Shown here in pieces: positions 4,668-30,032 of a stretch of DNA of 30,919 nt. Positions within the stretch are counted from its first letter, which is position 1; every line of letters begins with the position of its first letter. The notes under the pieces were generated by a model. It ran no database searches, was not told where the DNA came from, and worked only from the letters and a program-made list of their open reading frames with translations. A program made the translations under genes and the position numbers. Source of the DNA: Phycisphaerales bacterium UBA7708 (lineage in GTDB: Bacteria; Planctomycetota; Phycisphaerae; Sedimentisphaerales; Anaerohalosphaeraceae); NCBI GenBank assembly GCA_002482415.1, contig DLFY01000004.1, positions 15,278 to 46,196 of the forward strand, given 5' to 3'.

Positions 4668-6053
4668 ATGCAGATTTCGTTCACGGAAGAAACTAAAGCG
4701 ATTTATGAACATATTGCCCTATCCGTTGGTGAGGCAAAATATAAAATCTGGTTTAAGAGCAGCTCGCGTTTTACGCTGACCGAACAGGGTCTGGATATTG
4801 CTGTTCCCAACAGTTTTATTGCAAGCTGGATTGAAAATCATTTTGCCAAAGCGATTCGCGATGCGATGAAGGCGGTGACGGGGTCGGAAGGGCCGGTACA
4901 GTTTTCGATTGATTCGACGCTGGTGCCTGCGCCGCGCAAGGCCCCCGCAGCCAAGACACGTCCTATCGTAACGATTGAAGGTGTGACCCAGCAGGCCGAG
5001 TTTGTTCCTCCGCTGAAACTGACGTTCGATACCTTTGTTGTCGGCGATAAAAATCAACTGGCGTTTAATGCGGCCAAAACCGTGGTTCGTGAGGAGAAAA
5101 GTCCGTTCAATCCCCTGTTTTATCATGGCGGGTATGGCGTCGGCAAGACGCACCTGCTGCAGGGGATTTGCAATGAATATGCCCGCAGCCGGCCGGGGGC
5201 CAAGTGGATGTATGTGTCGGCGGAAGATTTTGCGAACCAGTATGTGCTGGCGCTGAAGACACAGAAACTGGAACAATTCCGCACACGATTCCGCAATCTG
5301 GATCTGCTGGCGATTGACGACATCCATTTTCTGGCCAATAAGACCGGTATGCAGGAGGAATTTCTGCATACCTTTAATAGTATTGACCTGGCAGGCAAAC
5401 AGATTGTGCTGGCCTCCGATGCGCACCCCAAGCAGATCGGGCAGCTTTGCGATAAGTTAGTCAGCCGGTTTGTGTCGGGGATGGTGGTGCGGATGGATTC
5501 GCCGGACTTTGAGACACGATGCGAAATCTGCCGGCGGAAGGCGGCGTCGATGAAGCAGAAACTCAGTGAGGAGGTCATCGAACTTCTGGCCGACCAGGTG
5601 ACCACCAGCGTGCGCGAGCTGGAGGGGGCACTGCTCAAGCTGATTGCATTCGGCTCGGTGTGCGGGCAGAAGATTACGCCGGCAGCGGCGCGGGAGCTGT
5701 TGTCGGAACACATTATCCGCAACGACCCGGTGGTGCACAGTTCGGATATCACTTCGGCGGTGGCGGCGTATTTCGGCGTCAGTTCCAACGAGATTCATTC
5801 GAGCAAGAAAGACCGTTCCATCAGCCTGGCCCGGTCGTTCTGTATGTTTTTGACACGGCGGCTGACCAAGATGTCGTTCCCGGAAATCGGCAAGACGCTG
5901 GGGGATAAGAATCATGCGACGGTGATTCTGGCCTGCCGCAAGATTGAACAGGCTGTCGAGACCAATCAGCGGCTGCAATGGAAGACCGAGGCGGGCTTCC
6001 GCAATGCCCCGGCCAAGGATGTCCTGCAGGAACTGCTCGAATCCATTCAGTAA
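4668..6053 (+). CDS. dnaA: Chromosomal replication initiator DnaA, paralogue 1 (divergent DNA-reading motif)
   Basis: AAA+ initiator of 461 residues. Residues 1-85 are the DnaA N-terminal interaction domain, including the conserved Y-x-x-W-F region (25-29). Residues 86-112 are a linker, about 113-340 the AAA+ module and about 350-461 the helix-turn-helix DNA-binding domain. Walker A is GGYGVGKT (154-161), Walker B is LLAIDD (213-218), the arginine-finger region is LVSRF (264-268), and sensor 2 is VRELEG (315-320). The DnaA signature helix, normally G-G-R-D-H-[ST]-T-V, reads G-D-K-N-H-A-T-V (412-419). So the Arg, Asp and first Ser/Thr positions are changed. In E. coli the Asp, His and first Thr touch bases of the DnaA box, so this copy may read a modified box. 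A ribosome site (GGAG) lies 6 bases upstream. A second, more canonical DnaA is at 28722. Confidence 0.92.
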   Translation: MQISFTEETKAIYEHIALSVGEAKYKIWFKSSSRFTLTEQGLDIAVPNSFIASWIENHFAKAIRDAMKAVTGSEGPVQFSIDSTLVPAPRKAPAAKTRPIVTIEGVTQQAEFVPPLKLTFDTFVVGDKNQLAFNAAKTVVREEKSPFNPLFYHGGYGVGKTHLLQGICNEYARSRPGAKWMYVSAEDFANQYVLALKTQKLEQFRTRFRNLDLLAIDDIHFLANKTGMQEEFLHTFNSIDLAGKQIVLASDAHPKQIGQLCDKLVSRFVSGMVVRMDSPDFETRCEICRRKAASMKQKLSEEVIELLADQVTTSVRELEGALLKLIAFGSVCGQKITPAAARELLSEHIIRNDPVVHSSDITSAVAAYFGVSSNEIHSSKKDRSISLARSFCMFLTRRLTKMSFPEIGKTLGDKNHATVILACRKIEQAVETNQRLQWKTEAGFRNAPAKDVLQELLESIQ

Positions 6054-11896: not shown

Positions 11897-12205
11897 GGGT
11901 TATAGAAAGGCCGCTTTGTGTCGCCCCGCTGGGGCTTTGAGAAAAGCCAGATTGCTTTCCGGGCGTTTCCACGCCCGGCTATTTTCTTTCGCCCCTTCGG
12001 GGCTTTATTTTTTCTTGCCTGTCCGGAGGCTTACGCCTCCGGCTATGAAACTTAGGAGCCCTCCGGGGTCAAAATAATGATCTGTTTTCGACAGCAATTA
12101 GGCTGATGATACAATCACAAAGGCCGCTATTTATGATCTCTTCGGGTTAGAATGACAGGTTGTTTTCTACAGAGCCGATTGAATGAGCAGACAGAAGTAC
12201 AAGAA
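11897..12205. repeat. Hairpin-rich non-coding block, possibly a small mobile element
   Basis: No gene fits here. Four compact hairpins follow each other: 11923-11935 (GCCCC/GGGGC), 11959-11978 (8-bp arms, loop TTCC), 11991-12003 (GCCCC/GGGGC) and 12023-12042 (8-bp arms, loop TTAC). The second and fourth are followed by the same CCGGCTA tail. A perfect 10-base direct repeat, AAAGGCCGCT, lies at 11906-11915 and 12119-12128 and brackets all four. This could be a target duplication around a MITE-like insertion, or chance. Downstream, the block runs into the pfp terminator. Confidence 0.5.
11991..12014 (+). terminator. Intrinsic terminator of the glycoside-hydrolase gene group
   Basis: A five-bp GC stem (GCCCC at 11991-11995, GGGGC at 11999-12003) with loop TTC is followed by a T-rich run (TTTATTTTTTC). 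It lies about 100 bases downstream of the last gene on the plus strand, within the hairpin block. Confidence 0.65.
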
Positions 12206-14692: not shown

Positions 14693-14797
14693 TTAATGCC
14701 GTGTATAACCAGGTTGCGGGATAGGACATCTGAGTCTTATATGTCCTGTACGTGGATTACAACAGAAAAGTATTTATTTTTCAGTCAGGAGATAGCC

Positions 14798-15430
14798 ATG
14801 AAGGTCATATTAATCAACGGAAGTCCCAATAAAAACGGGTGTACGTATACGGCGCTGGAGGAGGTGGGCAGGATGCTCAATGCCGAGGGGATTGAGACCG
14901 ATTTTTTTCACATTGGGACAAAGCCGTTGTCCGGATGCATTGCCTGCCGGAAGTGCCAGGAGCTGGGACGCTGCGTTTTTTCGGATAAGGTCAATGAATT
15001 TCTGGATATCGCCAAAGACGCCGACGGGTTTGTGTTCGGGTCGCCGGTGTATTATGCCTCTGCGGCGGGGGCATTGACCTGTTTTATGGATCGCGTGTTT
15101 TTTGCCAACGCCTTATCCGGCAGGCAATGTTTTTATTTGAAGCCGGCCGCCGCGGTGGTCAGCGCCCGACGGGCGGGAACGACGGCGACATTCGACCAGC
15201 TTAACAAATATTTTACCATCTCCCAGATGCCGGTGATCTCGTCGCGATACTGGAATATGGTGCATGGCTTTACTCCCGAGGATGTCAAACAGGACCTGGA
15301 GGGGATGCAGATTATGCGGGTGCTGGGCAGGAATATGGCCTGGTTTTTGAAATGCAAAGAGGCCGGCATGAAAGCGGGGATTGCATTGCCCGAACGGGAA
15401 GACACGATCTTTACAAACTTTATCCGATAG
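14798..15430 (+). CDS. Iron-sulfur flavoprotein-like NAD(P)H-dependent FMN reductase
   Basis: Cytoplasmic flavodoxin-fold redox protein of 210 residues. The phosphate-binding loop is N-G-S-P-N-K-N-G-C-T (7-16). The second FMN loop is G-S-P-V-Y-Y-A-S. Between them four cysteines are spaced C47-x2-C50-x2-C53-x5-C59, the compact spacing that binds a 4Fe-4S cluster in iron-sulfur flavoproteins (Isf) of anaerobes. Such proteins shuttle electrons, for example in reductive detoxification. The start at 14798 has GGAG nine bases upstream; the frame from 14696 lacks one and adds unrelated residues. A terminator lies directly after the stop. Cluster binding is inferred from the cysteine spacing only, and the electron partner is unknown. 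Confidence 0.85.
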   Translation: MKVILINGSPNKNGCTYTALEEVGRMLNAEGIETDFFHIGTKPLSGCIACRKCQELGRCVFSDKVNEFLDIAKDADGFVFGSPVYYASAAGALTCFMDRVFFANALSGRQCFYLKPAAAVVSARRAGTTATFDQLNKYFTISQMPVISSRYWNMVHGFTPEDVKQDLEGMQIMRVLGRNMAWFLKCKEAGMKAGIALPEREDTIFTNFIR

Positions 15431-15491: not shown

Positions 15492-16694
15492 CTACTGGAC
15501 GTTGAGGATCGAGTTGAAGTCGCCGAAGGGGTTCATTTCGGTCATTTCGTTGTAGGGATCCTGCTGCCACTGGCCGTCGACGACCAGGCGATAGCGATAG
15601 GTGCCCTTGTCCAGCGGCATTTTAATCTGCCAGTTGCCGTTGTCGCCGACTTTTTCCAGCGGGGTCTGTTCGGGTTTCCAGCCGTTGAAGTCGCCGGCGA
15701 TGTGGACGGCCTGAGCCCGGGGATACAGGGCCGAGAAGACCACCGAGCCGTTGACCTGGCGGGCGCCGTAGAAATCGGCCAGCTTCTGTTCGAGCGTGGT
15801 CCTGGGCTGTTCGGGCTCAATGGACATCTTGGGCTCTTTAATCGAGGCCAGCAGTTCATCGGCACTGGCGCTGATGGATTTCAGGCGGGTCTGGAGGGTG
15901 TTGACCAGTTCGGCCTTGTGGGTCTGGGTATCGGAACCGACCAGTTCATCGGCCAGGGCCAGGAAGTCCTTGAAGCCTTTGCTGGCCGGGTCGTATTCGC
16001 TGATCGGCTGGCCGAGGCTGGCGGCTTCCTTGAGCTTGGTATTGAAGTTGATGACGGTCTTGAACATCCGGCTGCTGAAGTGCTTGCGGAGTTCGGCCAG
16101 GATTTCACGGGCCATCTTGGTGCGGATATCGTACATGCTGGCCAGGACCATTACATTGACCCGTTCGGGGCACTGCTGGGACAGGGCATTGAGCGTATCC
16201 AACTGTTTGCTGAGGCCGTGCAGGGAGAAATAGCCCATTTCCACGGGGACGACGACATCGGTCGCGGCGCGGAGGGCATTGAAAGTCAACAGCCCCACCG
16301 ACGGCGGGCAGTCGATAATGACATAGTCGAATTCGTTGCGAATCTGGGCCAAGATGTTGCGGAGGGCGTTTTCCCGGTCCGGCTGGCCGGTGGTCTGGGT
16401 TTCAAAGGTGGCCAGGTCGATGGTGGACGGGGCCAGTTCAAACCGCTCGGAGATTTTCCAGAGAATTTCGGTAATGCGAAGCGGCTCACCGCGGGCCTGG
16501 CCGATCATGACATCGAACATGCTGTGTTCGATCTGTTCTTCCGGCACCGCCAGCCCGACGGCACAATGCGACTGGGGATCCATATCCACCAGCAATGTCC
16601 GATAACCACGATTGGCCATGGCACTGGCCAGATTTATCGAAATCGTTGTCTTGCCAACTCCGCCTTTTTGGTTAATGACAGCTATGGCTCTCAT
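15492..16694 (-). CDS. ParA/Soj ATPase fused to a glycogen-binding (CBM48/AMPK-type) domain
   Basis: A 400-residue fusion. Residues 1-250 are a complete ParA ATPase: deviant Walker A K-G-G-V-G-K-T-T (10-17), D-M-D-P-Q (37-41) and Walker B V-I-I-D-C-P-P-S (125-132). ParA proteins form ATP-dependent patterns on DNA or membranes to position DNA or other cargo. Residues 251-315 form a polar, probably helical linker. Residues 317-399 are an early-set/CBM48-like domain: V-V-F-S-A, V-H-I-A-G-D-F-N-G-W (330-339), G-N-W, then Y-R-Y-R-L-V-V-D-G-Q-W (366-376) and D-P (379-380). This is the arrangement of AMPK beta-subunit and isoamylase glycogen-binding modules. The ATG at 16694 has AAGGAAG six bases upstream, and ParA homology starts there. 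No parB is adjacent. The fusion suggests positioning of glycogen or another polysaccharide cargo, or sugar-state sensing. Confidence 0.9.
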   Translation of the reverse strand: MRAIAVINQKGGVGKTTISINLASAMANRGYRTLLVDMDPQSHCAVGLAVPEEQIEHSMFDVMIGQARGEPLRITEILWKISERFELAPSTIDLATFETQTTGQPDRENALRNILAQIRNEFDYVIIDCPPSVGLLTFNALRAATDVVVPVEMGYFSLHGLSKQLDTLNALSQQCPERVNVMVLASMYDIRTKMAREILAELRKHFSSRMFKTVINFNTKLKEAASLGQPISEYDPASKGFKDFLALADELVGSDTQTHKAELVNTLQTRLKSISASADELLASIKEPKMSIEPEQPRTTLEQKLADFYGARQVNGSVVFSALYPRAQAVHIAGDFNGWKPEQTPLEKVGDNGNWQIKMPLDKGTYRYRLVVDGQWQQDPYNEMTEMNPFGDFNSILNVQ

Positions 16695-17118
16695 AGGCAC
16701 TTCCTTGCGACCCCCCGGTTTCATCCTTGAAACTTTTTTTACCGAATTTGCCGTCGCGCCGGTTTTTTTATAAATTTATTTATCCCGGCTATCCTGTCAG
16801 GCGCTTCGGTTCACATTCCTGATTATCAATACTGATACTATTTACAGTATATTATCGGAGTCATCGACCAAAACTTTATGATTTCTTCAATTTTTATCGG
16901 ACAAAATTAAAAAAAACCGCATTTTTAATCCTGATAGAGCAGTTTCGGCCCGGAGTTGCCCTATTTTATCAAAAAAGTGTATATTTTTGCCCCGATTGCC
17001 GATATAATGTTAAAGTTCATAAAATTCCAGGCTATATTCCGCTCAGATCTAAATCTAACACCGTACCATCCGGGATAGCGTTACGTCCCGGCGGAGTGCC
17101 TGGCTGGAGAAACAAACT
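16695..17118. promoter_or_regulatory. AT-rich intergenic region upstream of parA with long inverted repeat
   Basis: 424 bases without a gene, between divergent parA (-) and a small ORF (+). The main structure is an imperfect inverted repeat: GATTATCAATACTG at 16821-16834 and CAGTATATTATC at 16845-16856. The arms match at 11 of 12 positions once a two-base bulge is allowed, around a ten-base centre. It could be the parA operator or a partition site. A second palindrome (CCGGGA/TCCCGG, 17070-17091, loop containing GTTACG) lies before the small ORF. No parS-type GTTTCAC palindrome, RNA gene or further ORF is seen. Confidence 0.5.
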
Positions 17119-20006: not shown

Positions 20007-20693
20007 TCAGCGGCCCGCGTTTTTCAGGGCGGCTTCCGCTATGCGAATGCCCAGTTTTTTGGCGGTATCCACCCCGAATTCATCTTTGGTGATGTCATCA
20101 TTGTAATTATTCCACAGCGTTGCCCCCTGATGAGCACTGGGTTTTCCGCCGACGATGAACGGCTCATAGCAGAGCATTGCCGAGAGAATCTGTTCGATGA
20201 CCAGCTCCTGTCCGCCATTGCGGAAAGACCCGACGGCCAGAGCACCGACGGGCTTGTCGGCCAATCGCATGACGGGCGTTCGAACCGTGTAGAGGCGTTC
20301 GAGAAAAGCCTTGCACACGGCGCTCATAGTGCGGAAATAAACCGGTGAACCGATAATCAGGCCGCCCAGGTTGGGGGACATGAAATAGGGTTCCACATTC
20401 ACTTCGTAATCATCAAAGGGAATTTGCGGAGCGTCCGGCTTGGCGCCGCCTTTCCAGCCGGAGAGTTTCATGTCGGCCAGATCGATGAGCTGCGTTTCAA
20501 TGCGAGGGCTGACGGCCTGAGCGGCTTCGAGGGCAATCTTGACCGACGTGGCGGTAGTTTTGCCCTTGCGGGGACTGCAGCTTACACCGAGAATGATGAT
20601 TTTGGATTCCGGTTCATTTTCGGCAGCCATCGCCCCGAGCGAAAGACCTGCAACCGCAGTGATTCCCTGCGATACAAAGTTTCTTCTGTCCAT
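20007..20693 (-). CDS. Tat-exported flavodoxin-like protein (NADPH-dependent FMN reductase family)
   Basis: Flavodoxin-fold protein of 228 residues with a twin-arginine leader (D-R-R-N-F-V at 2-7, then a hydrophobic stretch to about 25), so it would be exported folded, with cofactor, to the periplasm. The FMN phosphate loop is S-C-S-P-R-K-G-K-T. A second FMN loop is G-S-P-V-Y-F-R-T. The core is the NADPH-dependent FMN reductase type. AAGGAG precedes the ATG. It is the last of the tightly spaced minus-strand genes, 37 bases after ccdA. An exported flavodoxin-like protein next to a disulfide-electron carrier suggests a role in periplasmic electron transfer, but this is inference. Confidence 0.8.
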   Translation of the reverse strand: MDRRNFVSQGITAVAGLSLGAMAAENEPESKIIILGVSCSPRKGKTTATSVKIALEAAQAVSPRIETQLIDLADMKLSGWKGGAKPDAPQIPFDDYEVNVEPYFMSPNLGGLIIGSPVYFRTMSAVCKAFLERLYTVRTPVMRLADKPVGALAVGSFRNGGQELVIEQILSAMLCYEPFIVGGKPSAHQGATLWNNYNDDITKDEFGVDTAKKLGIRIAEAALKNAGR

Positions 20694-20730
20694 AAAATCT
20701 CTCCTTATTGATATAGATTTCGATAGCGTA

Positions 20731-21435
20731 TCAGGACGCCGTATAAATCATGTATAATCCGCCCAGCAGGACCAGCACGCCGCAGATTTTCTTGAGGATG
20801 GCTGAGCCTCTGGACTGTTCGTTCCAGTTCATATAGCGCTGGACCAGTTCGGTATAGGTGCCGGCCAGGACGATGACCGAACAGTGGCCGATGCCATAGA
20901 CGGCCATCAGCAGGATGCCATAGGAGGAGACCGAGCCGGCGGCCAGCTTGAAGGTGATGGCCAGAATCGGGGCCATGTAGGCGAAGGTGCAGGGCCCCAG
21001 CGCGATGCCGAAGATCAGCCCGAGCATCCATGCGGCCAGAAGGCCTTTGCGGTGCATGCCGACCTGGCCGGGGCCGGACCAGGGGGCGGGGATGACATCC
21101 AGCAGGTGCAGGCCGACCAGAAAGAAAATCGCCGCGACGAGGTAATTGCCCCAGCCGCCGATATCGCCCATCATTCGCCCGGCGGCGTGGGTGATGGCAC
21201 CGATGGCGCCGATGGTGATTAAGATTCCAAGGGCAAACAGCGTGGAAATCCAGAAGGCCCGGCGGGTCGGCATCCGTCCCTGGCCGTTAATGAACCCGAC
21301 GATCAACGGGATGCTGGCCAGATGGCAGGGGCTGAGGATGACGCTGAGGATGCCCCAGATAAACGATGCGGGCAGCGCGATAAACCACGCCCCTTCCAGA
21401 GCCCGACTGATTTGAATAAACAGCTCCTGCATCAT
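20731..21435 (-). CDS. ccdA: CcdA/DsbD-type thiol-disulfide electron transporter
   Basis: Polytopic membrane protein of 234 residues with about six helices. It carries reducing electrons from cytoplasmic thioredoxin across the membrane to periplasmic thiol proteins. The two redox cysteines sit in the expected membrane motifs: S-P-C-H-L (C37) and G-P-C-T-F (C149), the two-cysteine core of CcdA. The ribosome site is weak (GGTGGTG), and an ATG one codon later is an alternative start. It lies 28 bases after the ABC-transporter ATPase gene and could reduce the periplasmic thioredoxin encoded upstream in the same gene row. Confidence 0.9.
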   Translation of the reverse strand: MMQELFIQISRALEGAWFIALPASFIWGILSVILSPCHLASIPLIVGFINGQGRMPTRRAFWISTLFALGILITIGAIGAITHAAGRMMGDIGGWGNYLVAAIFFLVGLHLLDVIPAPWSGPGQVGMHRKGLLAAWMLGLIFGIALGPCTFAYMAPILAITFKLAAGSVSSYGILLMAVYGIGHCSVIVLAGTYTELVQRYMNWNEQSRGSAILKKICGVLVLLGGLYMIYTAS

Positions 21436-21463
21436 GAATCACCACCGTGGATAGACAAGTGTT

Positions 21464-22183
21464 TCATTTCTTAGTCCCCGTCGGGTGTTCTTTCAACACA
21501 CCGTCTTCCATTTCCAGAATGCGATCAAAGACATCCAGAGACCGATGGTCATGGGTTACGACAATCACTCCGGAATCGTGTTCGTGGGCTACCCTGCGGA
21601 ACAATTCCATCACCTGCCTGCCGCGTACGCTGTCCAGGGCCGCCGTCGGCTCATCGGCCAGCAGGAGGGTGGGGCTATTGGCCAGGGCCCGGGCCACGGC
21701 GACCCGCTGCTGCTGTCCGCCCGACAGCTTGGCCGGCAAATAGTCGGCTCGATCCGCGACATCCAGATACTCCAGCAATTCCAAGGTTCTTTGCCGTGCC
21801 TGGCGAGGCGGAGTATGATTGATTTCCATGGCCAGCTGCACGTTTTCAGCAGCGGTCAGAAAAGGGATTAAGTTGGCTTTTTGAAACACAAAGCCCAGAT
21901 AGCGACGGCGAAACGAACGGACGTTGACTGTCAGAGCATGATGATCAAAGACCGTTTTGTCTGCAATCCTGATTGTGCCGACGTTGGGCGTTTGAATCAG
22001 CCCCAACAAGGTCAACAGGGTGGATTTTCCGGCACCGCTGGGACCCAGTAAAGCCACAATCTCGCCGCGGTGAACCTGCATGGCGGCATTGCGTACCGCA
22101 ACCACTTCGGTGTTGCCGCTGCCGTAGATTTTGGTCAATCCTTCGGCCTGTAATGCCATTTTGTTATCAGATTTCGGCTTCAT
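21464..22183 (-). CDS. ABC transporter ATP-binding protein (MacB/LolD type)
   Basis: ATPase subunit of 239 residues. Walker A is G-P-S-G-A-G-K-S (47-54), the Q-loop is F-V-F-Q-K (98-102), the signature is L-S-G-G-Q-Q (153-158), Walker B is L-L-L-A-D-E-P (173-179), and the switch histidine is in V-V-T-H-D. It resembles the MacB/LolD/FtsE group, whose partners are FtsX-like permeases. Its start overlaps the permease stop by four bases (ATGA), so translation is coupled. The complex would couple ATP hydrolysis to conformational change in the permease and adaptor and move a substrate out of the inner membrane or periplasm. Confidence 0.95.
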   Translation of the reverse strand: MKPKSDNKMALQAEGLTKIYGSGNTEVVAVRNAAMQVHRGEIVALLGPSGAGKSTLLTLLGLIQTPNVGTIRIADKTVFDHHALTVNVRSFRRRYLGFVFQKANLIPFLTAAENVQLAMEINHTPPRQARQRTLELLEYLDVADRADYLPAKLSGGQQQRVAVARALANSPTLLLADEPTAALDSVRGRQVMELFRRVAHEHDSGVIVVTHDHRSLDVFDRILEMEDGVLKEHPTGTKK

Positions 22184-23391
22184 GACAGCACCTCGTTAGG
22201 CTCGGTCCGCAGGGCACGATGGATGCCCAGCAGGCTGGAGAGCACTGAAATCACAACCACGATGCCTGCCAGCACAATTAAATCCTCCTGGAGCAGGAGC
22301 ACCCTGCGGGGAAAATGAGGAAAGGCCCACTGACCCAGAATATGGGCGAGGCCAAAACCAATCACCCCCAGCAGCATTGCCTGTTCCATAATCAGCCGAA
22401 AGATAACGGTGTTGGCGGCGCCAATGAGCTTGAGCATGGCGATATCATGCAGCTTGTCCAGGGTAAGCGTATAGAGAATCAGTGCCATGATAATCCCGGA
22501 GACGATGATCAACAGGACACGAAACAATCCCAGCTGTCTTCTGGCCCGGTCTACACTGCCCCGCAGGAGCAGTTCTTTCTGGCCGTTCTGGGTATAGACC
22601 GAGACATCGGGCCAGGCCTCAATTTGTTTTGCCACGGCATCCGCACTGAAACCCGGAAGCACCTGAACCAGCACGGCGCTGACCATCGAGGTGCCGAGGG
22701 CGGGAATCTGAGCTCCGGGGCCTGCGGCATGGTCCTGCATCTGCGGCTGAGTGCGTCCCAGTTCATGATCGGAGAGCCGATTGACACGGGCCGTGCGCTC
22801 GATGCGAATCGCCTCGGGCGGCAGATCAAATTGCACCGCCTGGGCATCCAGCAAGGTCATAAACGCCATGGAATCACCGGCAGCGGAGGTCATCCCCTCC
22901 GTCAGACCGACGACGGTGAATATCTCTTTGGCCAGCGGAATCCTGTCGCCGGGCTGCAGGCCCGAGGATTTATCGGCAACCATTTCATAATGAGCCTGCT
23001 CCAGACCCCGACCGGCAATAATCGGAAACCAGTGTCCCCGATCTGCAGGCCAGGACAATCCCTGAATCGTCAGGCGAAGCGGTTTATTGTTGAAACTGCG
23101 CTGCACAGTATGGGAGATAAATGCATACGACGACTGGACCCCGGGAACCGCAGCAATCCGGTCTTCAAGCGTGCGGGGGATGCGTGAAATCTCCGCAAAG
23201 GGCCCGCGTGTGTTTTTTTGGACGACCCACAGATCCGCATCAATACGATCCACAATCAGTGTTGCGTCCTGAACCAGTCCGCGATAAATACCGCCCATCC
23301 CCATCACCAGCATCAGCAGCATCCCGATACCCAGCGAAGTCAGGACAAATCGCCCAAAATTATGGCGTATGTCTTTAATGGCTAAATTCAT
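22180..23391 (-). CDS. FtsX-like ABC permease (MacB-type)
   Basis: Permease of 403 residues. The layout is that of MacB-type permeases: one N-terminal membrane helix (about 14-34), a large periplasmic domain (about 35-285), then three C-terminal helices (about 290-316, 330-350 and 370-395). It overlaps the gene before and the gene after by four bases each, so adaptor, permease and ATPase are translated together. Such complexes export peptides, lipids, lipoproteins or small toxic molecules by a mechano-transmission cycle. No outer-membrane partner is in the window, and the substrate cannot be read from the sequence. Confidence 0.9.
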   Translation of the reverse strand: MNLAIKDIRHNFGRFVLTSLGIGMLLMLVMGMGGIYRGLVQDATLIVDRIDADLWVVQKNTRGPFAEISRIPRTLEDRIAAVPGVQSSYAFISHTVQRSFNNKPLRLTIQGLSWPADRGHWFPIIAGRGLEQAHYEMVADKSSGLQPGDRIPLAKEIFTVVGLTEGMTSAAGDSMAFMTLLDAQAVQFDLPPEAIRIERTARVNRLSDHELGRTQPQMQDHAAGPGAQIPALGTSMVSAVLVQVLPGFSADAVAKQIEAWPDVSVYTQNGQKELLLRGSVDRARRQLGLFRVLLIIVSGIIMALILYTLTLDKLHDIAMLKLIGAANTVIFRLIMEQAMLLGVIGFGLAHILGQWAFPHFPRRVLLLQEDLIVLAGIVVVISVLSSLLGIHRALRTEPNEVLS

Positions 23392-24533
23392 GGTTCAATC
23401 CTTACAGCCCGTCCCTCGCGCGGCAATTTAAGGCCGGGCACAATGATGTCCTGTCCTGTCTGCAGGCCCTGCACAACTTCGACTTTGCCCTGTCCCTGCA
23501 AGCCCAACTGCACCTGAGTCCATCGCGCTTTTTTGCCTTCGACATAAAACACACCGGGCCGGTCCTGCCGCCAAACCATGGTCTCCTGCGGGACAATTTG
23601 CGTGTTTTCCCTGCGGTCAAGCTCTATAAACACCTCTGCGCGCTGGCCAATCGCCCAGGTGTCGGGCAATTGATCCACGGTCACATCCACCTGGACTTCC
23701 CGTGTTTCGCGGTCGGCTTGCGGTGAAATGCGTGCCACGGCGCCGCGCAATTGCGAATCGGGGTCGGAACGGAAAATAATCCGGCACGGCTGACCGAGTT
23801 TGAGCTTGCCCAGCAGGGTCTCGTCCACCCAGGCGGAAATCCACAGGGGATCCAGATAGACCATATCCAACACGATGGATCCGGGGACAGCAATATCACC
23901 GGGATCACGCGTCCGGCTGAGAATCAGGCCGTCAAATGGCGCCTCTATTTGGGTATCCGCCAGCCGTTCCTGATAATATTGCACTGCGGCCTGAGCCCTG
24001 GCGACCTGTTTTTCGGCTTCGATTTTGGAAGTTTGCTCACGGTGCAGTTCTGCTTCCGACACCTCCATTTCCTCTCTGGCTTTATCGATATCTTTGACGC
24101 TGACGGCCTGTGAATCCGTCAGCTTGGAATAACGGGAATACGTGACTCGAGCGTTTTTGGTGATCGCTTCCGTTCGATTGATTTGGGCCTGGGCCCGTTC
24201 CACCCCCGCCTGGGCAAGGGCCAGTTCCGCTTTGGCCATTTCCACCTGCTGGAGGATATCCTCGTCATCCAGCGTGACAAGAATCTGCCCTTTGCTGACC
24301 CGATCACCCTGGTCCACGTGAATCCGGGCGATTCGTCCGGAAATTTTCGGGCTGATTGCGGCACGAATATGGGCCTCCAGCGTCCCTGTACCCATCGCTT
24401 CGGCAACAATACTGTCCTGGGCAACCTTGACGGTTTTAACGGGAATGGGGGAAAAGAAAAGTCTATAAGCGACCGCACCGGCAACAATAATGATGACCAG
24501 TGATTTTAGTATTCCTTTTAAATAACGTCTCAT
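23388..24533 (-). CDS. HlyD/MacA-family periplasmic adaptor
   Basis: Membrane-fusion protein of 381 residues. After a membrane anchor (about 9-26) come a lipoyl/barrel-sandwich segment (I-S-G-R-I-A-R-I-H-V-D-Q-G-D-R-V, the usual MFP opening), a long alpha-helical hairpin rich in Ala, Glu and Gln, the second lipoyl half, and a beta-barrel end. It would link the permease to the cell exterior or periplasm. The ATG at 24533 has AAGG seven bases upstream; a TTG at 24548 lies before that ribosome site and is unlikely. Its stop overlaps the permease start by four bases. The pairing with an FtsX-type permease and ATPase makes a MacAB-like exporter. Confidence 0.92.
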   Translation of the reverse strand: MRRYLKGILKSLVIIIVAGAVAYRLFFSPIPVKTVKVAQDSIVAEAMGTGTLEAHIRAAISPKISGRIARIHVDQGDRVSKGQILVTLDDEDILQQVEMAKAELALAQAGVERAQAQINRTEAITKNARVTYSRYSKLTDSQAVSVKDIDKAREEMEVSEAELHREQTSKIEAEKQVARAQAAVQYYQERLADTQIEAPFDGLILSRTRDPGDIAVPGSIVLDMVYLDPLWISAWVDETLLGKLKLGQPCRIIFRSDPDSQLRGAVARISPQADRETREVQVDVTVDQLPDTWAIGQRAEVFIELDRRENTQIVPQETMVWRQDRPGVFYVEGKKARWTQVQLGLQGQGKVEVVQGLQTGQDIIVPGLKLPREGRAVRIEP

Positions 24534-24592
24534 CTGAGTCCTTATCAATATAATGTCGTGTGTGAAAATTCCTGGAAAAAAACACCATTAAA

Positions 24593-25903
24593 TTATTTCG
24601 GGGTGCATTCGCCGATTTTACAGGCCTTCTGGATTTGTTCGGGCGACAGTTTCATTTTGTCGGCCAGGGCCTGATGTATGGTAATCAGCTTGCCGGTCTC
24701 ATGTGGATTTTTTTCGACCCATTTTTTGAGATTGTCGGCATTGACGAAAAATCCCTGATGGAAACAGCCGGCCGAGGTCCAGGTGCCGTCCGGTTTCTTG
24801 CGCTGGCCAAACCATGCCACGGCGGTGGACGGTTCCAGTGAGGCAATGCTGCCGTTGAGGGTCTTGACGACAATCGGCTCGCCGGTGAGACGGTCTTTTT
24901 CGTGGACTTCGATATCCTTGCCGGTGCGGGCCGCGACACCGAGGGCACAATGCGAACAGCATCCCCAGGTCTGAACGCCTTCGAGGCGGACTTCGGCGGC
25001 ATCCTGCGGGTAGCAGGCCCGGTCACAAAAGCCGCAGCGGTGGGATAATTCATTTGTCTGGAGTGCGGCCAAAGTCAGGATGTTTCCGCCGGCGGCCTGC
25101 TGGGCCTGTTTGGCGGCGGCGGTATCGGCATAGGCCTGAAGGATCGGACGACCTGCGGCATCAACGCCCTGCAGATAGACTGCGTCCGACAGCGGCAGCA
25201 TCCGGCCGGATGTAAAATCAGCGACGGTGACTTTCTTTTCGAAATCAGTCTTGTCTTCGGTCAGGCAGGAATACATGATGAAATAGCAATGCGGGCCGCA
25301 CAGCCGGACATCGCCTTTGTCGGTCTTGACCATGACCAGCGTTTTGGCAGCGATATCCTTTTCGCACATGTAGCAAATCTGGTCTTTGGGGCGGGTGTCC
25401 GGCGAGGCCGGCTCCAGGCGTGAAAACTGGGGTGCAGCGGTTCCGGCAAAATCGAAGCCGAGTTCTTTCCACTTGGCCAGGATGTCTTCTTTGGAGAAAA
25501 ATCCTTCGTGGCGGAACAGTTCTGCGCCGGTTGGGGCGATGAATATCTGCGTTGGAATAAGGTTGATGCTGTAGGGTTTTTCCGCATCGGGATTTTTCCA
25601 GACATCGATGAACACCACTTCCAGCTTGCCCTGATACTCCGTCTTGAGCTGTTCAAGGATCGGGGCCATCATTTTGCAGGGGATGCATTTGTCAGCGCCC
25701 AGATCAACCAGCCGCGGCAGGGTCGAAGGCTCGTATTGGCGGGCGGCTCCTTCGGCTGCGGGAGCGGCAGAAGGAGGAGCAATTTCCGGCTGCGACGCCG
25801 TGGACGGGGGACAACAGGGTACTCCGCCGCGTTTCAGGACCACAACGGCCCCCACAGCCACCATCAACACAACAACAATTCCCATCTTGGCATACGGATT
25901 CAT
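24593..25903 (-). CDS. Membrane-anchored thioredoxin with two NosL-like Cys-rich segments
   Basis: A 436-residue protein with 18 cysteines. An N-terminal signal anchor (7-24) is followed by C30-C31 and a Pro/Ala linker. Residues 62-150 are a thioredoxin domain with active site C73-I-P-C76 and a cis-proline loop (I-P-T-Q). Residues 175-280 resemble a NosL copper-binding domain: C177-x2-C180, C202-x3-C206, then V-A-D-F-T-S-G and a Gly-Gly-x-I-L end. Residues 288-410 look like a second, longer copy: C290-x2-C293-x3-C297, C315-C316-x2-C319 and a T-G-E element. The C-terminal tail has C428-x4-C433. The ATG at 25903 has AAAGGAAG upstream. It probably works in the periplasm, taking electrons from CcdA and binding metal or thiol substrates. 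The NosL likeness is from pattern memory and needs a profile search. Confidence 0.8.
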   Translation of the reverse strand: MNPYAKMGIVVVLMVAVGAVVVLKRGGVPCCPPSTASQPEIAPPSAAPAAEGAARQYEPSTLPRLVDLGADKCIPCKMMAPILEQLKTEYQGKLEVVFIDVWKNPDAEKPYSINLIPTQIFIAPTGAELFRHEGFFSKEDILAKWKELGFDFAGTAAPQFSRLEPASPDTRPKDQICYMCEKDIAAKTLVMVKTDKGDVRLCGPHCYFIMYSCLTEDKTDFEKKVTVADFTSGRMLPLSDAVYLQGVDAAGRPILQAYADTAAAKQAQQAAGGNILTLAALQTNELSHRCGFCDRACYPQDAAEVRLEGVQTWGCCSHCALGVAARTGKDIEVHEKDRLTGEPIVVKTLNGSIASLEPSTAVAWFGQRKKPDGTWTSAGCFHQGFFVNADNLKKWVEKNPHETGKLITIHQALADKMKLSPEQIQKACKIGECTPK

Positions 25904-25969
25904 GGTTCTTCCTTTATTTATGATTCCGAGACTGTTTTGCGACAATTCCAATACAAACGATAAGGTCGA

Positions 25970-26341
25970 TTACAGCAGCGGCATGGCCGCACTGCAGGCC
26001 TTGTTGATGTTGTCTTCTGTTGCAGGGCTTTTGCCTTTTTCCAGACCGAGGTCGGCAAGCTGAAGATGCTTGAAAGTGGTAAATCCGGCCTTTTCAAGAC
26101 ATGCCTTGACACAATTCAAGGGACAGCCGTCGATGGCCAGAATGGACGAAGCGGCCTGCGTCGTTTTCATAATGCCGTCTATCCGCCCGCCGATGCCGGT
26201 CAGACAAAACATCTTGCCGGCCCCATCCCGGGTCAGTTTTCGCGCCGCCTGGTCGGCAACGGCACCCACATCCGCCGCGCCGGAACAGGCAAAAATCAGT
26301 TTCGGCCCGCCGGTACATACCTGACTATTCTGCTCTGCCAT
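25970..26341 (-). CDS. DGC-domain putative zinc-binding protein
   Basis: A 123-residue cytoplasmic protein with six cysteines: C9, C19, C46, C73, C77 and C81. The family-naming Asp-Gly-Cys motif is at 71-73 (A-I-D-G-C-P-L-N-C), and a second cysteine pair sits near the N terminus. DGC proteins are proposed zinc binders and are frequently encoded next to ArsR regulators, DUF318 permeases and small thioredoxins, exactly the neighbourhood here. The biochemical role of the family is not established as far as I know. AAGG precedes the ATG. Confidence 0.85.
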   Translation of the reverse strand: MAEQNSQVCTGGPKLIFACSGAADVGAVADQAARKLTRDGAGKMFCLTGIGGRIDGIMKTTQAASSILAIDGCPLNCVKACLEKAGFTTFKHLQLADLGLEKGKSPATEDNINKACSAAMPLL

Positions 26342-26428
26342 AAAACACCTTGCCTTTCTGATTGACGATTATTGAATTAAGATTGTCGATTTATTTCGGT
26401 TTCCACAATGTGCGGCAAACGATCACAG

Positions 26429-26668
26429 CTATTGCTGCTGAAGCATGGATTTAATGTCCGACAGGGGCGGCACTTTGCCCACAGACTTGACCTGGCCATC
26501 GACGACCAGGGCCGGGGTAATCATCACGCCGAATTTCATGATGTCGTTAATCTGCGTGACTTTTTCCAGTTCGTATGTCAGCCCGAGTTCTTTGGCCGCG
26601 GCCTCAGCCATTTCGGCAAGCTGCTTGCATTTGGGGCAGCCGGTACCCAGAATCTGTATTTTTTTCAT
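26429..26668 (-). CDS. Small CxxC thioredoxin-like protein
   Basis: A 79-residue single-domain thioredoxin fold with active site G-C11-P-K-C14, early in the chain (MKKIQILGTG), and the cis-proline loop I-T-P-A. It matches the redox-active disulfide protein 2 / MTH895-type group, which is often encoded beside DUF318 permeases. GAGGAT lies about eight bases before the ATG. It probably cycles between dithiol and disulfide in the cytoplasm and may deliver electrons to CcdA or to the permease's cargo. Confidence 0.88.
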   Translation of the reverse strand: MKKIQILGTGCPKCKQLAEMAEAAAKELGLTYELEKVTQINDIMKFGVMITPALVVDGQVKSVGKVPPLSDIKSMLQQQ

Positions 26669-26703
26669 TGCTTGATATCCTCATTCAATTTTTGAAATTA
26701 ATC

Positions 26704-28176
26704 TCAAAACAGTGCTCCATAAATTAATCCGCTGATCGTAGCCATCACAATCACCAGCGACACATAAATCACTGTTTTTTGCGTTCCCATGACCGAGCGT
26801 ATCACCAGCATACTGGGCAGGCTCAGTGCCGGACCTGCCAGCAGCAGCGCCAGGGCGGGGCCTTTGCCCATACCGCTTCCAATTAATCCCTGCAAAATCG
26901 GGACTTCGGTCAGCGTGGCAAAGTACATGAAAGCGCCGGCGACTGAGGCCAGCAGATTGGCCCGCAGCGAATTGCCGCCGACGGCCCACTCGACCCACCG
27001 ATTCGGTATCAGGCCTTCATGGCCGGGCCGACCGAGAAACGCACCGGCAAACAAAACGCCGAAAAACAGCAAAGGTAATATCTGTTTAGCGAAAGTCCAT
27101 GTCGAAGCAAACCATTCGCCGGCCTCTCCTTTGTCGGTACTGGTCATCCAGGATAAGCCGATAACGGCGGCTGTAAAAGGAATCATCACCATCATCCCCT
27201 GCATCGGCAGCATTAAAGCCAGAACTGCCACAGGAATGGCAGTAATCGCGACTTTCCACCAGACAATACCGAACCAAAGTATGAGAATGATTCCAAGAGC
27301 GGCTGAAAACAGGGCTGTTACTGCCCATTTATAAGTCCAAATCGTGGTCCATAGGCCGGGAACCGGCGTTTTTTCAACAACATCTTCCGCCGCCAGTTCT
27401 ATCTCATGACCCAGGGTGGTACTATCGAGTAGTTTCAGCCTATAGGAGCTGGCTAAGGGACCGCCGTGTTCTGGGGATTTTAAAACCGCCGCATGGAAGG
27501 TGGAGCCGTCTGTGGTTTTGAAAATAAAGTCGTTGGGCGCCCCCCAGTTGGCAAACACCAGAACTCCAATCATGACGGCAAAAAACAGGGCATTCTGCCA
27601 CAGCGGACGTTTTACCTCCGGTTCAGGCATTGCCATCTGGCCGTTGGCTTTTTCGATTTCTTCTTTGCGATAGATCACGTGCATCAGCAGGCCGATGATA
27701 ACGCTGAAGAGAATCGCACCGACGGCGCGGGCTATACCCAGTTCGATTCCGAGAATCCGAGCGGTCAGGATGATGGCAAGGATATTGATGGCCGGGCCGG
27801 AGTACAGGAAGGCCGAGGCCGGACCAAGTCCCGCCCCCATGCGATAAATCCCTGCAAACAGGGGCAGAATCGTACAGGAGCAGACCGCCAGAATCGTGCC
27901 GGATACCGACGCCACACCATAGGCGAGGATTTTATTGGCCCGGGCACCAAGATATTTCATGACCGAGGCCTGACTGACAAATACGGATATCGCTCCGGCA
28001 ATGAAAAATGCCGGCACGAGGCACAGCAGGACATGCTCCTGGGCGTACCACTTGACCAGATGCAGAGATTCCATAACGGCGTTGTCAAATCGCGGGGTGC
28101 CGATGGGCAAATAAAAACAGATCAGAAATATCCCGACAATCCACGCCAGCGTCTTCCAATGTTCATTCCAATTCAT
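26704..28176 (-). CDS. DUF318/ArsP-type permease
   Basis: Polytopic permease of 490 residues, with at least eight membrane helices. Helix 3 has the family's hallmark C99-S-C101-T-x-x-P-L-F-A-G and the following G-A-G-L-x-x-A-x-x-F-L-x-S-G-P-A-I-N (114-131). A soluble insert (about residues 215-270) rich in charged residues is longer than in compact ArsP proteins. Members studied elsewhere (ArsP) export trivalent organoarsenicals; most others are uncharacterised. The start has only a weak ribosome site and lies 20 bases after the ArsR gene, so the two may be co-transcribed. An ArsR-type regulator and redox neighbours support a metal or metalloid role. Confidence 0.9.
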   Translation of the reverse strand: MNWNEHWKTLAWIVGIFLICFYLPIGTPRFDNAVMESLHLVKWYAQEHVLLCLVPAFFIAGAISVFVSQASVMKYLGARANKILAYGVASVSGTILAVCSCTILPLFAGIYRMGAGLGPASAFLYSGPAINILAIILTARILGIELGIARAVGAILFSVIIGLLMHVIYRKEEIEKANGQMAMPEPEVKRPLWQNALFFAVMIGVLVFANWGAPNDFIFKTTDGSTFHAAVLKSPEHGGPLASSYRLKLLDSTTLGHEIELAAEDVVEKTPVPGLWTTIWTYKWAVTALFSAALGIILILWFGIVWWKVAITAIPVAVLALMLPMQGMMVMIPFTAAVIGLSWMTSTDKGEAGEWFASTWTFAKQILPLLFFGVLFAGAFLGRPGHEGLIPNRWVEWAVGGNSLRANLLASVAGAFMYFATLTEVPILQGLIGSGMGKGPALALLLAGPALSLPSMLVIRSVMGTQKTVIYVSLVIVMATISGLIYGALF

Positions 28177-28196
28177 GTCCGTTATGTCCAGTATGA

Positions 28197-28517
28197 TTAA
28201 ATAACATTCAGTAGTTTCTGTTCCCGCAGGGCGTTTTCCTTAAGCGCCTCGGTCAGGCAATCCACAAACCGCAAGATACACGGCGTGCGAACCTTATAGA
28301 TGACCTGAAGGCCCTGTTTGCGGTACTCCAGCACTCCCGCCGCGACCATAATCGACAAATGCTTTGAGATGTTGGATCGCTCGGACTTGACCGCGTCGGC
28401 AATGTCGCAGACACATTGCGGCCCATCCCGCAAATAATCCAGAATAGCCATCCGCAGCGGATGGGCAATAGCTTTGGCGACATTGGCCTGCTTGTCATAG
28501 ATAATTTGTTTTTCCAT
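28197..28517 (-). CDS. ArsR-family metalloregulator
   Basis: Winged helix-turn-helix repressor of 106 residues. The sensor motif is C35-V-C37-D in the recognition-helix area, as in arsenic/cadmium-binding ArsR/SmtB proteins. C80 and C87 near the C terminus could complete a thiolate site. The DNA-reading helix is S-N-I-S-K-H-L (48-54), followed by a beta wing. Such proteins leave DNA when their cysteines bind As(III), Cd, Pb or related ions, derepressing the operon. Its own promoter with an overlapping inverted repeat is visible directly upstream. The ligand cannot be read from sequence alone. Confidence 0.92.
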   Translation of the reverse strand: MEKQIIYDKQANVAKAIAHPLRMAILDYLRDGPQCVCDIADAVKSERSNISKHLSIMVAAGVLEYRKQGLQVIYKVRTPCILRFVDCLTEALKENALREQKLLNVI

Positions 28518-28529
28518 GTTATGTGTTCC

Positions 28530-28577
28530 TATGTGACTAATTTGTCATATAATAATATATGGCATCTTCTCTGTCAA
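28530..28577 (-). promoter_or_regulatory. Promoter and ArsR-type operator of the redox/metal gene row
   Basis: On the minus strand: -35 TTGACA (28577-28572), a 17-base spacer, and -10 TATTAT (28554-28549, one mismatch). Start-proximal, overlapping the -10, lies an inverted repeat: TATGTGAC (28530-28537) and GTCATATA (28544-28551), 7 of 8 positions pairing with a six-base centre TAATTT. Repressor bound here would block polymerase. ArsR proteins typically use operators of this size. Confidence 0.75.
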
Positions 28578-28721: not shown

Positions 28722-30032
28722 TTGGCAAAATCACAGGATTCCAGTCAGTTATTTGAAGCGATTTTGGAACGGGCCAAGACCCTGGACCCCGTCAATATCC
28801 GCACGTGGTTTGACGACCTCGTCGTGGAGGAATTTGACGGCGGGGTTCTGCATGTCGGCTGCCCGGACGCGGCGACTGCGCAATATCTTCAGGACCGGTG
28901 CCTGTCAACGTTTACTCAGGCTGCACAGAATATTACGGGGCATCTGGTCAGTGTGCAGTTTCGTCCCATCAGCACTGCCGCGGTGGTTCCGGCCATGGTG
29001 CAAAGCGGGGTTAAGCTGCATCCGGATTATACCTTCGAGAGTTTCGTGGTCGGGCCCTGCAATCGGCTGGCCCATGCAAGCTGCATCGCCATCAGCCAGA
29101 ATCCGGGGACGATTTATAATCCCCTGTTTTTATACGGCAACTCCGGCCTGGGCAAAACCCATCTGCTGCATGCGGTGTGCCATGAAAGCCTGCGGAATAA
29201 GGCGGGATTGTCGGTACAGTTCCTCAGTTGCGAGGCATTTGTCAACGGTTTCATCAGCGCCATCGAAAAAGGACAACTGGCGGATTTCCAGAACCTGTAC
29301 CGCTCGGTGGACGTGCTGATTATCGATGATGTGCAGTTTTTGCGGGAACGCGAGCAGAGTCAGGAAGAGTTTTTTCATACCTTCAATGCGCTCTATAATA
29401 ACCAGCGGCAAATTGTACTGACCGCCGACAGTGCCCCGGCGGATTTACAGGCCCTCGAAGACCGCCTCATCAGCCGTTTCAAGTGGGGACTTGTCGCCCG
29501 GCTGGACGCTCCCAGCTACGAAACCCGCATCGCCATCGTCAAAAAGAAGGCCAGTCTTCGCGGGCTGGTGATGCCGGACGGGGTTGCCGAACTGATTGCC
29601 GAGCATGTCAAGAGCAATATCCGGGAACTGGAGGGGGCGCTGACGGTGATTTATGCCACGGCCCGCACCGCGCAGAAAGACGTCTCACTGGAACTGGCCA
29701 AGCAGGCACTGGGCTATCAGGAAAGCGAATCGGCCAAAACGCTGTCGCTGGGCGATATTATCGCGGCGGTGGCGGAGGCCTTTGATATCCGCATCACCGA
29801 CCTGCAAAGTAAAAAACGCAGCCAGAGCATCGCTCTGCCGCGGCAGGTCTGCATGTATCTGGCCCGCACGCTGACCCGTCATAGTCTTGAGGAAATCGGC
29901 GGACATCTGGGCGGGCGGGATCACTCCACTGTGCTTCACGCCTGCGCCAAGGTCGAACAGATGTATAAGACGGAGCCGGATTTTCGCGGACGCATCGACA
30001 AGCTGACCTCGCACATCACCCGCGGCCTGTAA
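28722..30032 (+). CDS. dnaA: Chromosomal replication initiator DnaA, paralogue 2 (canonical DNA-reading motif)
   Basis: AAA+ initiator of 436 residues. N-terminal domain about 8-80 (with I-R-T-W-F, 26-30), AAA+ module about 100-310, and C-terminal DNA-binding domain about 340-436. Walker A is G-N-S-G-L-G-K-T (139-146), Walker B is L-I-I-D-D (199-203), the arginine-finger region is L-I-S-R-F (249-253), and sensor 2 is I-R-E-L-E-G (300-305). The signature G-G-R-D-H-S-T-V (397-404) matches the classical DnaA box-reading motif, whereas the other copy is changed at three of these positions. The start is a TTG, with GGAA about seven bases upstream; the only nearby ATG (28708) runs into a stop after two codons. 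A weak start could keep expression low. Which copy is the main initiator is open. Confidence 0.93.
   Translation: MAKSQDSSQLFEAILERAKTLDPVNIRTWFDDLVVEEFDGGVLHVGCPDAATAQYLQDRCLSTFTQAAQNITGHLVSVQFRPISTAAVVPAMVQSGVKLHPDYTFESFVVGPCNRLAHASCIAISQNPGTIYNPLFLYGNSGLGKTHLLHAVCHESLRNKAGLSVQFLSCEAFVNGFISAIEKGQLADFQNLYRSVDVLIIDDVQFLREREQSQEEFFHTFNALYNNQRQIVLTADSAPADLQALEDRLISRFKWGLVARLDAPSYETRIAIVKKKASLRGLVMPDGVAELIAEHVKSNIRELEGALTVIYATARTAQKDVSLELAKQALGYQESESAKTLSLGDIIAAVAEAFDIRITDLQSKKRSQSIALPRQVCMYLARTLTRHSLEEIGGHLGGRDHSTVLHACAKVEQMYKTEPDFRGRIDKLTSHITRGL

Follow-up and report, generated by a model that had tools for sequence, protein, structure and literature searches.

Gene content and organization of the row

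The window analysed here is a stretch of 30,919 nucleotides from Phycisphaerales bacterium UBA7708 (assembly GCA_002482415.1, contig DLFY01000004.1, positions 15,278 to 46,196). It contains a row of ten genes on the minus strand, which runs from position 28517 to position 20007. In order, the genes encode ArsR, an ArsP_1/DUF318 permease, an ArsE-type thioredoxin, a DGC-domain protein, a 436-residue fusion protein, a HlyD/MacA-type adaptor, a MacB_PCD/FtsX permease, an ABC ATPase, a DsbD_TM (CcdA) protein and an FMN_red protein (Table 1). The gaps between them are 20, 35, 87, 66, 59, -4, -4, 28 and 37 bases. This layout confirms the ten-gene, ArsR-headed row described in an initial annotation of the same DNA.

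The fusion protein joins a thioredoxin domain to a NosL-fold and a MerB-fold domain, the last of which was overlooked in the initial annotation. The protein appears to be anchored in the envelope. The adaptor, the MacB_PCD/FtsX permease and the ATPase are adjacent, as in MacAB-type exporters. The Pfam match of the ArsP_1 permease covers 446 residues across 285 profile positions. In a model search, ArsF is absent among the ten genes. The FMN_red protein is probably exported by the twin-arginine translocation (Tat) pathway, as deduced from its RR motif. A second FMN_red protein (112.9 bits) is encoded at 14696-15430 on the plus strand, about 4.6 kb from the row.

Table 1. Features of the ten-gene row and of its upstream region, in window positions
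Feature	Position	Strand	Evidence
Sigma-70-type promoter, TTGACA-17-TATTAT	28549..28577	-	11/12 consensus matches
Candidate ArsR operator, palindrome TATATGAC-AAATTA-GTCACATA	28530..28551	-	Overlaps the end of the -10 element
ArsR/SmtB metalloregulator, 106 aa, Cys35/Cys37	28197..28517	-	PF01022 50 bits; NF033788 76 bits (cut-off 55)
ArsP_1/DUF318 permease, 490 aa	26704..28176	-	PF03773 239 bits; SO_0444 and SaoE models under cut-off
ArsE/MTH895-type small thioredoxin, CxxC at 11/14	26429..26668	-	TIGR00412 ('redox_disulf_2') 106.9 bits (cut-off 62)
DGC-domain protein, 7 Cys	25970..26341	-	PF08859 102.7 bits
Anchored thioredoxin-NosL-MerB fusion protein, 436 aa	24593..25903	-	Domain matches, predicted structures, relatives
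Thioredoxin domain, residues 56-150, CIPC at 73-76	25454..25738	-	
Predicted NosL-fold domain, residues 171-285	25049..25393	-	
MerB-fold domain, residues 286-423; Cys316, Cys319, Cys380 at MerB positions Cys96, Asp99, Cys159	24635..25048	-	
HlyD/MacA-type periplasmic adaptor	23388..24533	-	TIGR01730 219.8 bits (cut-off 94.9)
MacB_PCD/FtsX exporter permease, without Cys	22180..23391	-	PF12704, PF02687
Exporter ATPase, DevA-like	21464..22183	-	PF00005 114.6 bits; DevA model 229.9 bits (under cut-off 295.8)
CcdA/DsbD_TM electron carrier, Cys37 in SPC and Cys149 in GPC motif	20731..21435	-	PF02683 35.3 bits (cut-off 27.1)
FMN_red/flavodoxin-fold protein, twin-arginine N-terminus	20007..20693	-	PF03358 61.5 bits

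Promoter and candidate ArsR operator

The promoter upstream of arsR is the best of 11 promoter-like sites between 19000 and 28800, where 6.6 are expected. Four weaker sites on the same strand lie within the row. The sequence at 28530-28551, TATATGACAAATTAGTCACATA, conforms to the motif TATRTGA-N8-TCAYATA. With two or fewer mismatches, this motif is present upstream of 24 of 44 related arsR genes, that of the window among them, compared with 0.16 expected from shuffles, a count that is partly circular since the motif was derived from about five regions and then counted in 44 that include these. The regions are from loci with an ArsR match of at least 45% identity and sufficient upstream DNA, with start codons set by a simple length rule.

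Two further observations are less circular. The 8-base spacer is fixed in 29 of the 30 matches within three mismatches, and the exact motif occurs once in the 4.38-Mb genome that contains the window, upstream of this arsR, with one more site at one mismatch. There is no second match in the window. An earlier scan for inverted repeats with any arms was weakly above shuffles (1.26 versus 1.90 mismatches over 43 regions). Conservation thus supports the candidate operator. The row combines an ArsR-family regulator with a conserved operator, as an ars operon does, and its initial description as one regulated unit is borne out.

Domains and pocket of the fusion protein

The predicted model of the whole fusion protein has a confidence (pLDDT) of 77; thioredoxins dominate its structure matches, and MerB2 ranks eighth. 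When the NosL-MerB part is modelled separately, the fold answer is clear. The C-terminal domain has the MerB fold and matches Pfam PF03243, and it misses the cut-offs of both NCBIfam MerB models (NF033555, 29.5 bits versus 200; NF009710, 25.6 versus 193). The middle domain is predicted to have the NosL fold, with 7osg and 7znq among the structure matches. It falls below the gathering score of PF05573 (NosL; 14.4 bits versus 24), and a profile search against the sequences of solved structures returns NosL at E 0.56. The NosL assignment is therefore a structural prediction, with weak support from sequence.

The MerB signature consists of Cys96, Asp99, Cys159 and Cys117, with 99Ser and alternative 117 residues as described variants (PMC8261052). 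A HMMER alignment with MerB2 (5c17), ungapped from the active-site helix to TGEP, pairs Cys96 with Cys316, position 99 with Cys319 and Cys159 with Cys380. A profile-profile alignment with four relatives of MerB type, encoded in other planctomycete genomes, places Cys96, Asp99 and Cys159 identically (E 2.9e-6, probability 88) and sets Cys117 on Asp337. An alternative placement of Cys319 on Cys96, suggested by shared CAL letters, requires a three-residue shift. It was dropped because the TGEP spacing equals that of MerB2 and the profile alignment agrees.

These residues are nearly invariant. Cys315, Cys316 and Cys319 are conserved in all 62 relatives with letters there (of 63), Cys380 in 63 of 63 and Asp337 in 62 of 62. 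In the other two domains, 59 of 60 relatives conserve the thioredoxin cysteines and 60 of 60 the first NosL cysteine. The domain thus retains the Cys96 and Cys159 positions and has neither Asp99 nor Ser99. By alignment it is a 99Cys, 117Asp form of MerB with an extra adjacent cysteine, and therefore a predicted poly-thiol site. By general chemistry, a site of this kind suits As(III).

In three MerB-type genes from other planctomycete genomes (L003, L005 and L009), Cys96 and Asp99 are retained and position Cys159 falls on an in-frame TGA, which possibly encodes selenocysteine. Two small proteins that carry CxxC and CxHCAL motifs (L011 and L012; 25 and 23.8 bits, just below the MerB cut-off of 27) are possible further NosL/MerB-fold metal proteins.

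Relatives and their neighbourhoods

A scan of contigs from GTDB species yields 63 loci with relatives of the fusion protein, mostly in the Planctomycetota (Phycisphaerae, Sedimentisphaerales). Further carriers are found in the Kiritimatiellae, Victivallales, Verrucomicrobia, Armatimonadetes, Firestonebacteria and Riflebacteria and in one Desulfovibrio bin, and a Dehalococcoidia bin contains a fragment (bin names as in the records). A protein search gives 1970 matches among 8000 scored candidates. Within the class, 81 of 298 genomes match: 24 contain the full-length fusion (one of them, G577, with an internal stop) and 57 match in the thioredoxin part only.

One fragment at a contig edge (L076) is excluded, leaving 62 fusion loci. 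On the same strand and within 10 kb, these contain ArsE (51), CcdA (47), ArsR (44), ArsP (41), DGC (35), the flavodoxin-type protein (27), ACR3 (23), ArsM (11) and the exporter permease (3). Many contigs are short. In the 31 loci flanked on either side by 4 kb or more, ArsE is present in 29, ArsR in 27, CcdA in 25, ArsP in 24, ACR3 in 15 and ArsM in 7. Homology clusters within 9 kb of the 62 loci, each named from one representative, include ACR3 (20), ArsM (11), the ArsF family (10) and a 330-residue thioredoxin (22). Several loci share a genome (for example L021/L026, L029/L074, L037/L049, L057/L059), so that loci are not equal to genomes.

Loci with the thioredoxin part only have a similar composition. 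The 24 examined are 20 loci to which L108, L129, L131 and L143 were added; two of these four (in G445 and G468) are outside the 28 thioredoxin-only genomes of the marker comparison below, and three were chosen for their exporter. One locus (L167) has no CcdA anchor and was dropped. In the remaining 23, ArsE is present in 22, ArsR and ArsP in 21 each, ACR3 in 15, DGC and ArsM in 9 each, and MerB in none. The core of ArsR, ArsP, ArsE, DGC, thioredoxin and CcdA recurs both with and without the NosL-MerB module. Since the thioredoxin-only loci hold the core set and have no MerB, the module looks like an addition to a pre-existing operon type.

Arsenic and mercury marker genes

Marker genes were compared between the 24 fusion genomes, the best 28 of the 57 thioredoxin-only genomes and 20 of the 217 non-matching genomes; contig placement of ACR3 and ArsM was examined in the first two groups. 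In 31 of 52 genomes (13/24 fusion and 18/28 thioredoxin-only), the arsenite exporter ACR3 is encoded within 10 kb. The arsenite methyltransferase ArsM is encoded within this distance in 18 of 52 (9 in each group). Among relatives, arsenic transporter and transformation genes are thus found within the row or close to it, though not beside the row in the window. The initial annotation left the metal open. The neighbourhood points to arsenic, and assignment of the operon to this element is made with high confidence.

HgcA is over cut-off in 0 of 24 fusion, 1 of 28 thioredoxin-only and 4 of 20 non-matching genomes. Weak partial HgcA matches below cut-off (E 1e-14 to 1e-19) are present in 6 of the 24 fusion genomes and were not counted. 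MerA is over cut-off in none of the 24; the weaker MerA matches in 23 of them and in all 14 controls are taken to be the wider flavoprotein family. MerT (PF02411) is found in 0 of 24 fusion genomes, a zero that is uninformative because 0 of 14 controls match either.

These data bear on the possibility that the row is an organomercurial lyase system, in which the MerB domain would act in the periplasm and cleave the C-Hg bonds of methylmercury. The MerB fold and both Hg-binding cysteine positions are retained, several relatives are named 'organomercurial lyase' by NCBI, and MerA is missing from about half of MerB-encoding genomes (PMC8261052). However, the catalytic Asp99 is replaced by cysteine in 62 of 62 relatives, and in the cited part of PMC8261052 the sole variant named at this position is 99Ser and the table has no MerB genome for the Planctomycetes. 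Current models also pass Hg(II) from MerB Cys96 straight to MerA (PMC8261052). Because Asp99 is lost, MerA and HgcA are over cut-off in none of the 24 fusion genomes and the named neighbours are ars genes, organomercury demethylation was rejected as the best reading and is considered unlikely. The name 'organomercurial lyase' is probably a misannotation.

In one genome (G631, contig C13, L108), a thioredoxin-only ars row is directly followed by HgcA over cut-off (460 bits) and then by ACR3. This places a gene of mercury methylation next to an ars operon.

The neighbouring genes also bear on a copper or general thiol-stress system, composed of a NosL-like copper chaperone, an SO_0444-type Cu/Zn permease and the exporter. 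In its favour, the NosL fold is that of a copper chaperone whose complex with the ABC transporter NosDFY has been solved (7osg, 7znq), and the permease matches the SO_0444 Cu/Zn model at 116 bits, under the cut-off of 300. Against it, the neighbours are ACR3, ArsM and ArsF. An RND-type cluster, judged by eye, lies near 6 of the 62 fusion loci and leaves some room for the copper reading, which, with no search aimed at copper genes, is given a low probability.

A system like ArsEFG would instead reduce and export nitro- or amino-phenyl arsenicals, the reductase being the exported flavodoxin or ArsF. The ArsE-family model is matched over cut-off, ArsF is present at 10 of 62 loci and one CcdA-cluster member (L061) is over the ArsG cut-off (262 bits versus 200). 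However, ArsF is absent from the ten genes, the CcdA of the window fails the ArsG model, and natural sources of nitrophenyl arsenicals for anaerobes seem doubtful. This alternative is also quite improbable.

The MacAB-type exporter

A MacB-type permease is present in 24 of the 298 class genomes at E 1e-60. Regions around the exporter were examined in 21 of these (the window and 20 others; G642, G487 and G404 were left out). Ten of the 21 are ars-type rows: the window, L129-L134, L137, L143 and L145. L145 is counted solely through an adjacent thioredoxin of the operon type, and L141, with an ArsR-like match of 25% identity, is not counted. The initial annotation named linkage of the MacAB/CcdA half to the ArsR/DUF318 half as a check on its reading. 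The linkage is seen in these ten regions and in the 47 of 62 fusion loci with CcdA on the same strand within 10 kb.

The order in L143 (genome G468) is nearly that of the window: ArsR-ArsP-DGC-ArsE-ArsF-Trx-adaptor-permease-ATPase-CcdA-Flav, where Trx is the thioredoxin and Flav the flavodoxin-type protein. DGC and ArsE are swapped, an ArsF-like gene is extra, the NosL-MerB part is missing and CcdA is 30% identical. In the permease tree, the ars label requires three changes; none of 500 shuffles is as low (mean 8.2), and three pairs of identical rows (L020/L137, L056/L132 and L061/L130) inflate this clustering test.

Proposed mechanism

The row is read as an ars (detoxification) operon for trivalent inorganic and/or methylated arsenic with a capture-and-export mechanism, which is given a somewhat better than even chance. 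The fusion protein is best read as a poly-cysteine protein of the periplasm that is reduced by thioredoxin and would capture trivalent arsenicals, its substrate and chemistry being those that the pocket and neighbours suggest. In this scheme, ArsR would be bound on the palindrome over the -10 element and released on binding As(III) or an organoarsenical. The ArsP-type permease, judging from its family, would carry the trivalent arsenical into the periplasm, while ArsE and the DGC protein may perform thiol and arsenic chemistry in the cytosol. Reducing equivalents would pass from ArsE to CcdA, across the membrane and on to the fusion's thioredoxin domain, a route consistent with the presence of the two CcdA cysteines and the two CxxC motifs. 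The NosL-MerB part, kept reduced by its own thioredoxin, would trap the arsenical in the MerB pocket. There, the cysteine that replaces the catalytic Asp99 would form, together with the adjoining equivalents of Cys96 and Cys159, a three-thiol site of the kind preferred by As(III). In the window and some relatives, the MacAB-type exporter would then expel the cargo, or an adduct of it, through the outer membrane, with the exported flavodoxin as a putative accessory reductase. MacB-type exporters take their substrates from the periplasm, which fits a periplasmic trap. The single route proposed in the initial annotation, from a cytosolic thiol protein through a transmembrane electron carrier and a periplasmic thioredoxin to an exporter, is supported.

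Several observations weigh against this reading. Eleven of the 21 exporter regions have no ars partner, bar one weak ArsR-like match. The exporter contains one cysteine in the adaptor and none in the permease or the ATPase, and a hand-off of bound metal is therefore invisible in its sequence. The CcdA of the window has no match to the ArsG model. The genome that contains the window is 85% complete and encodes ACR3 and ArsM on a separate contig (C97). The row itself has neither gene, and on C97 the operator is not found above chance (two matches at three mismatches, 1.33 expected). Some relatives carry the NCBI name 'organomercurial lyase'. Finally, a genome-wide search at E 1e-40 finds ArsM in 17/24 fusion, 11/28 thioredoxin-only and 6/20 non-matching genomes, and the difference between the first two groups has a Fisher p of 0.029 with phylogeny ignored.

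The over-representation of ArsM-bearing genomes among fusion carriers would agree with a C-As lyase, or demethylase, that acts on methylated arsenicals without O2. Here the NosL-MerB part would be a re-tooled MerB-fold enzyme, with cysteine for Asp99 and a built-in thioredoxin, that breaks or reversibly holds As-C bonds anaerobically as a counterpart of ArsI, the product being expelled by the MacAB-type exporter. MerB performs protonolysis of C-Hg bonds. ArsI, the known C-As lyase, is a dioxygenase, and the mechanism by which dimethylated arsenic (DMAs) is demethylated is termed unclear (PMC10579292). However, Asp99 is missing, the ArsM association is no stronger than the test above with phylogeny uncontrolled, and ArsM is also near 9 of 28 thioredoxin-only operons. 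In addition, ArsI-bearing denitrifying bacteria demethylate trivalent monomethylated arsenic, MMAs(III), in anoxic paddy soil, and methanogens act upon DMAs(III) (PMC10579292), so that field data do not demand an unknown anaerobic lyase. Such an enzyme is a possibility of low probability, and capture and export remains the preferred reading.

Other features of the window

Two DnaA-type proteins are encoded about 23 kb apart on the plus strand (4668-6053 and 28722-30032). The second is divergent to arsR and has no DnaA_N match. A ParA/MinD-type ATPase with a fused C-terminal CBM48/AMPK glycogen-binding domain is encoded at 15492-16724 on the minus strand, and an Acido-Lenti-1 RNA (RF01687, 54.5 bits versus a cut-off of 37) is present at 11959-12004 on the plus strand.

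Comparison with known systems

The initial annotation considered the combination of genes to be new, which holds in part. The core is widespread, and the redox set and ArsP have been known since 2010 (PMC2963123). That report describes ars operons with a set of CcdA, thioredoxin and redox-active disulfide protein 2, at 8 instances from 7 organisms, and separately records 61 instances of ArsP in such operons. The row shares with it ArsP, the small disulfide protein, thioredoxin and CcdA. The report also describes a longer ArsP type with a hydrophilic insert, and ArsC accompanies 7 of its 8 instances of the three redox genes. The DGC protein, the NosL-MerB fusion, the MacAB-type exporter and the exported flavodoxin are added in the window. 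Among the papers listed in a literature search, in which coverage of subscription journals was thin so that absence is unproven, none dealt with a thioredoxin-NosL-MerB protein or its 99Cys site, or with a MacAB-type exporter as part of an ars operon.

The proposed reading ties the NosL/MerB fold to arsenic. It adds a protein-reduced periplasmic arsenical trap with a MacAB-type exporter as a proposed further ars part, and would provide a concrete candidate for O2-free handling of methylated arsenic. It also concerns surveys of MerB, one of which built its model from 41 sequences picked on Cys96 and Cys159, partly from PF03243 (PMC9948709). Surveys could tally this fusion family as methylmercury degraders, because these features are present despite the lost Asp99 and the arsenic-pointing neighbours.

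With the known ArsEFG system (PMC9144182), the row shares an ArsE-type protein, a CcdA-fold membrane protein and, in some relatives, ArsF. It differs in that the row of the window has no ArsF and its CcdA misses the ArsG model, so that the full set of ArsE, ArsF and ArsG is not present. The SAO selenoprotein system consists of the MerB-like SaoL, the thioredoxin-like SaoT, the permease SaoE and ABC subunits (PMC13188914), and therefore has the same kinds of MerB-like protein, thioredoxin, ArsP-type permease and ABC transporter. In contrast, all ten frames of the row are open without TGA and the exporter is of the MacAB type. Membership was rejected, with the SaoE model at 96 bits versus a cut-off of 325 and SaoL unmatched at E 0.001.

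MerB and MerB2 (PDB 3f0o, 5c17) share with the fusion protein the fold and the positions of Cys96 and Cys159. Unlike them, the fusion has cysteine for Asp99, aspartate for Cys117, fused thioredoxin and NosL domains and an ars neighbourhood, and is apparently anchored in the envelope. NosL of NosDFYL (PDB 7og7, 7osg) shares the predicted fold and is likewise a metal protein paired with an ABC transporter, whereas the fusion has its own cysteine set, fused thioredoxin and MerB domains and a permease of the MacB/FtsX type.

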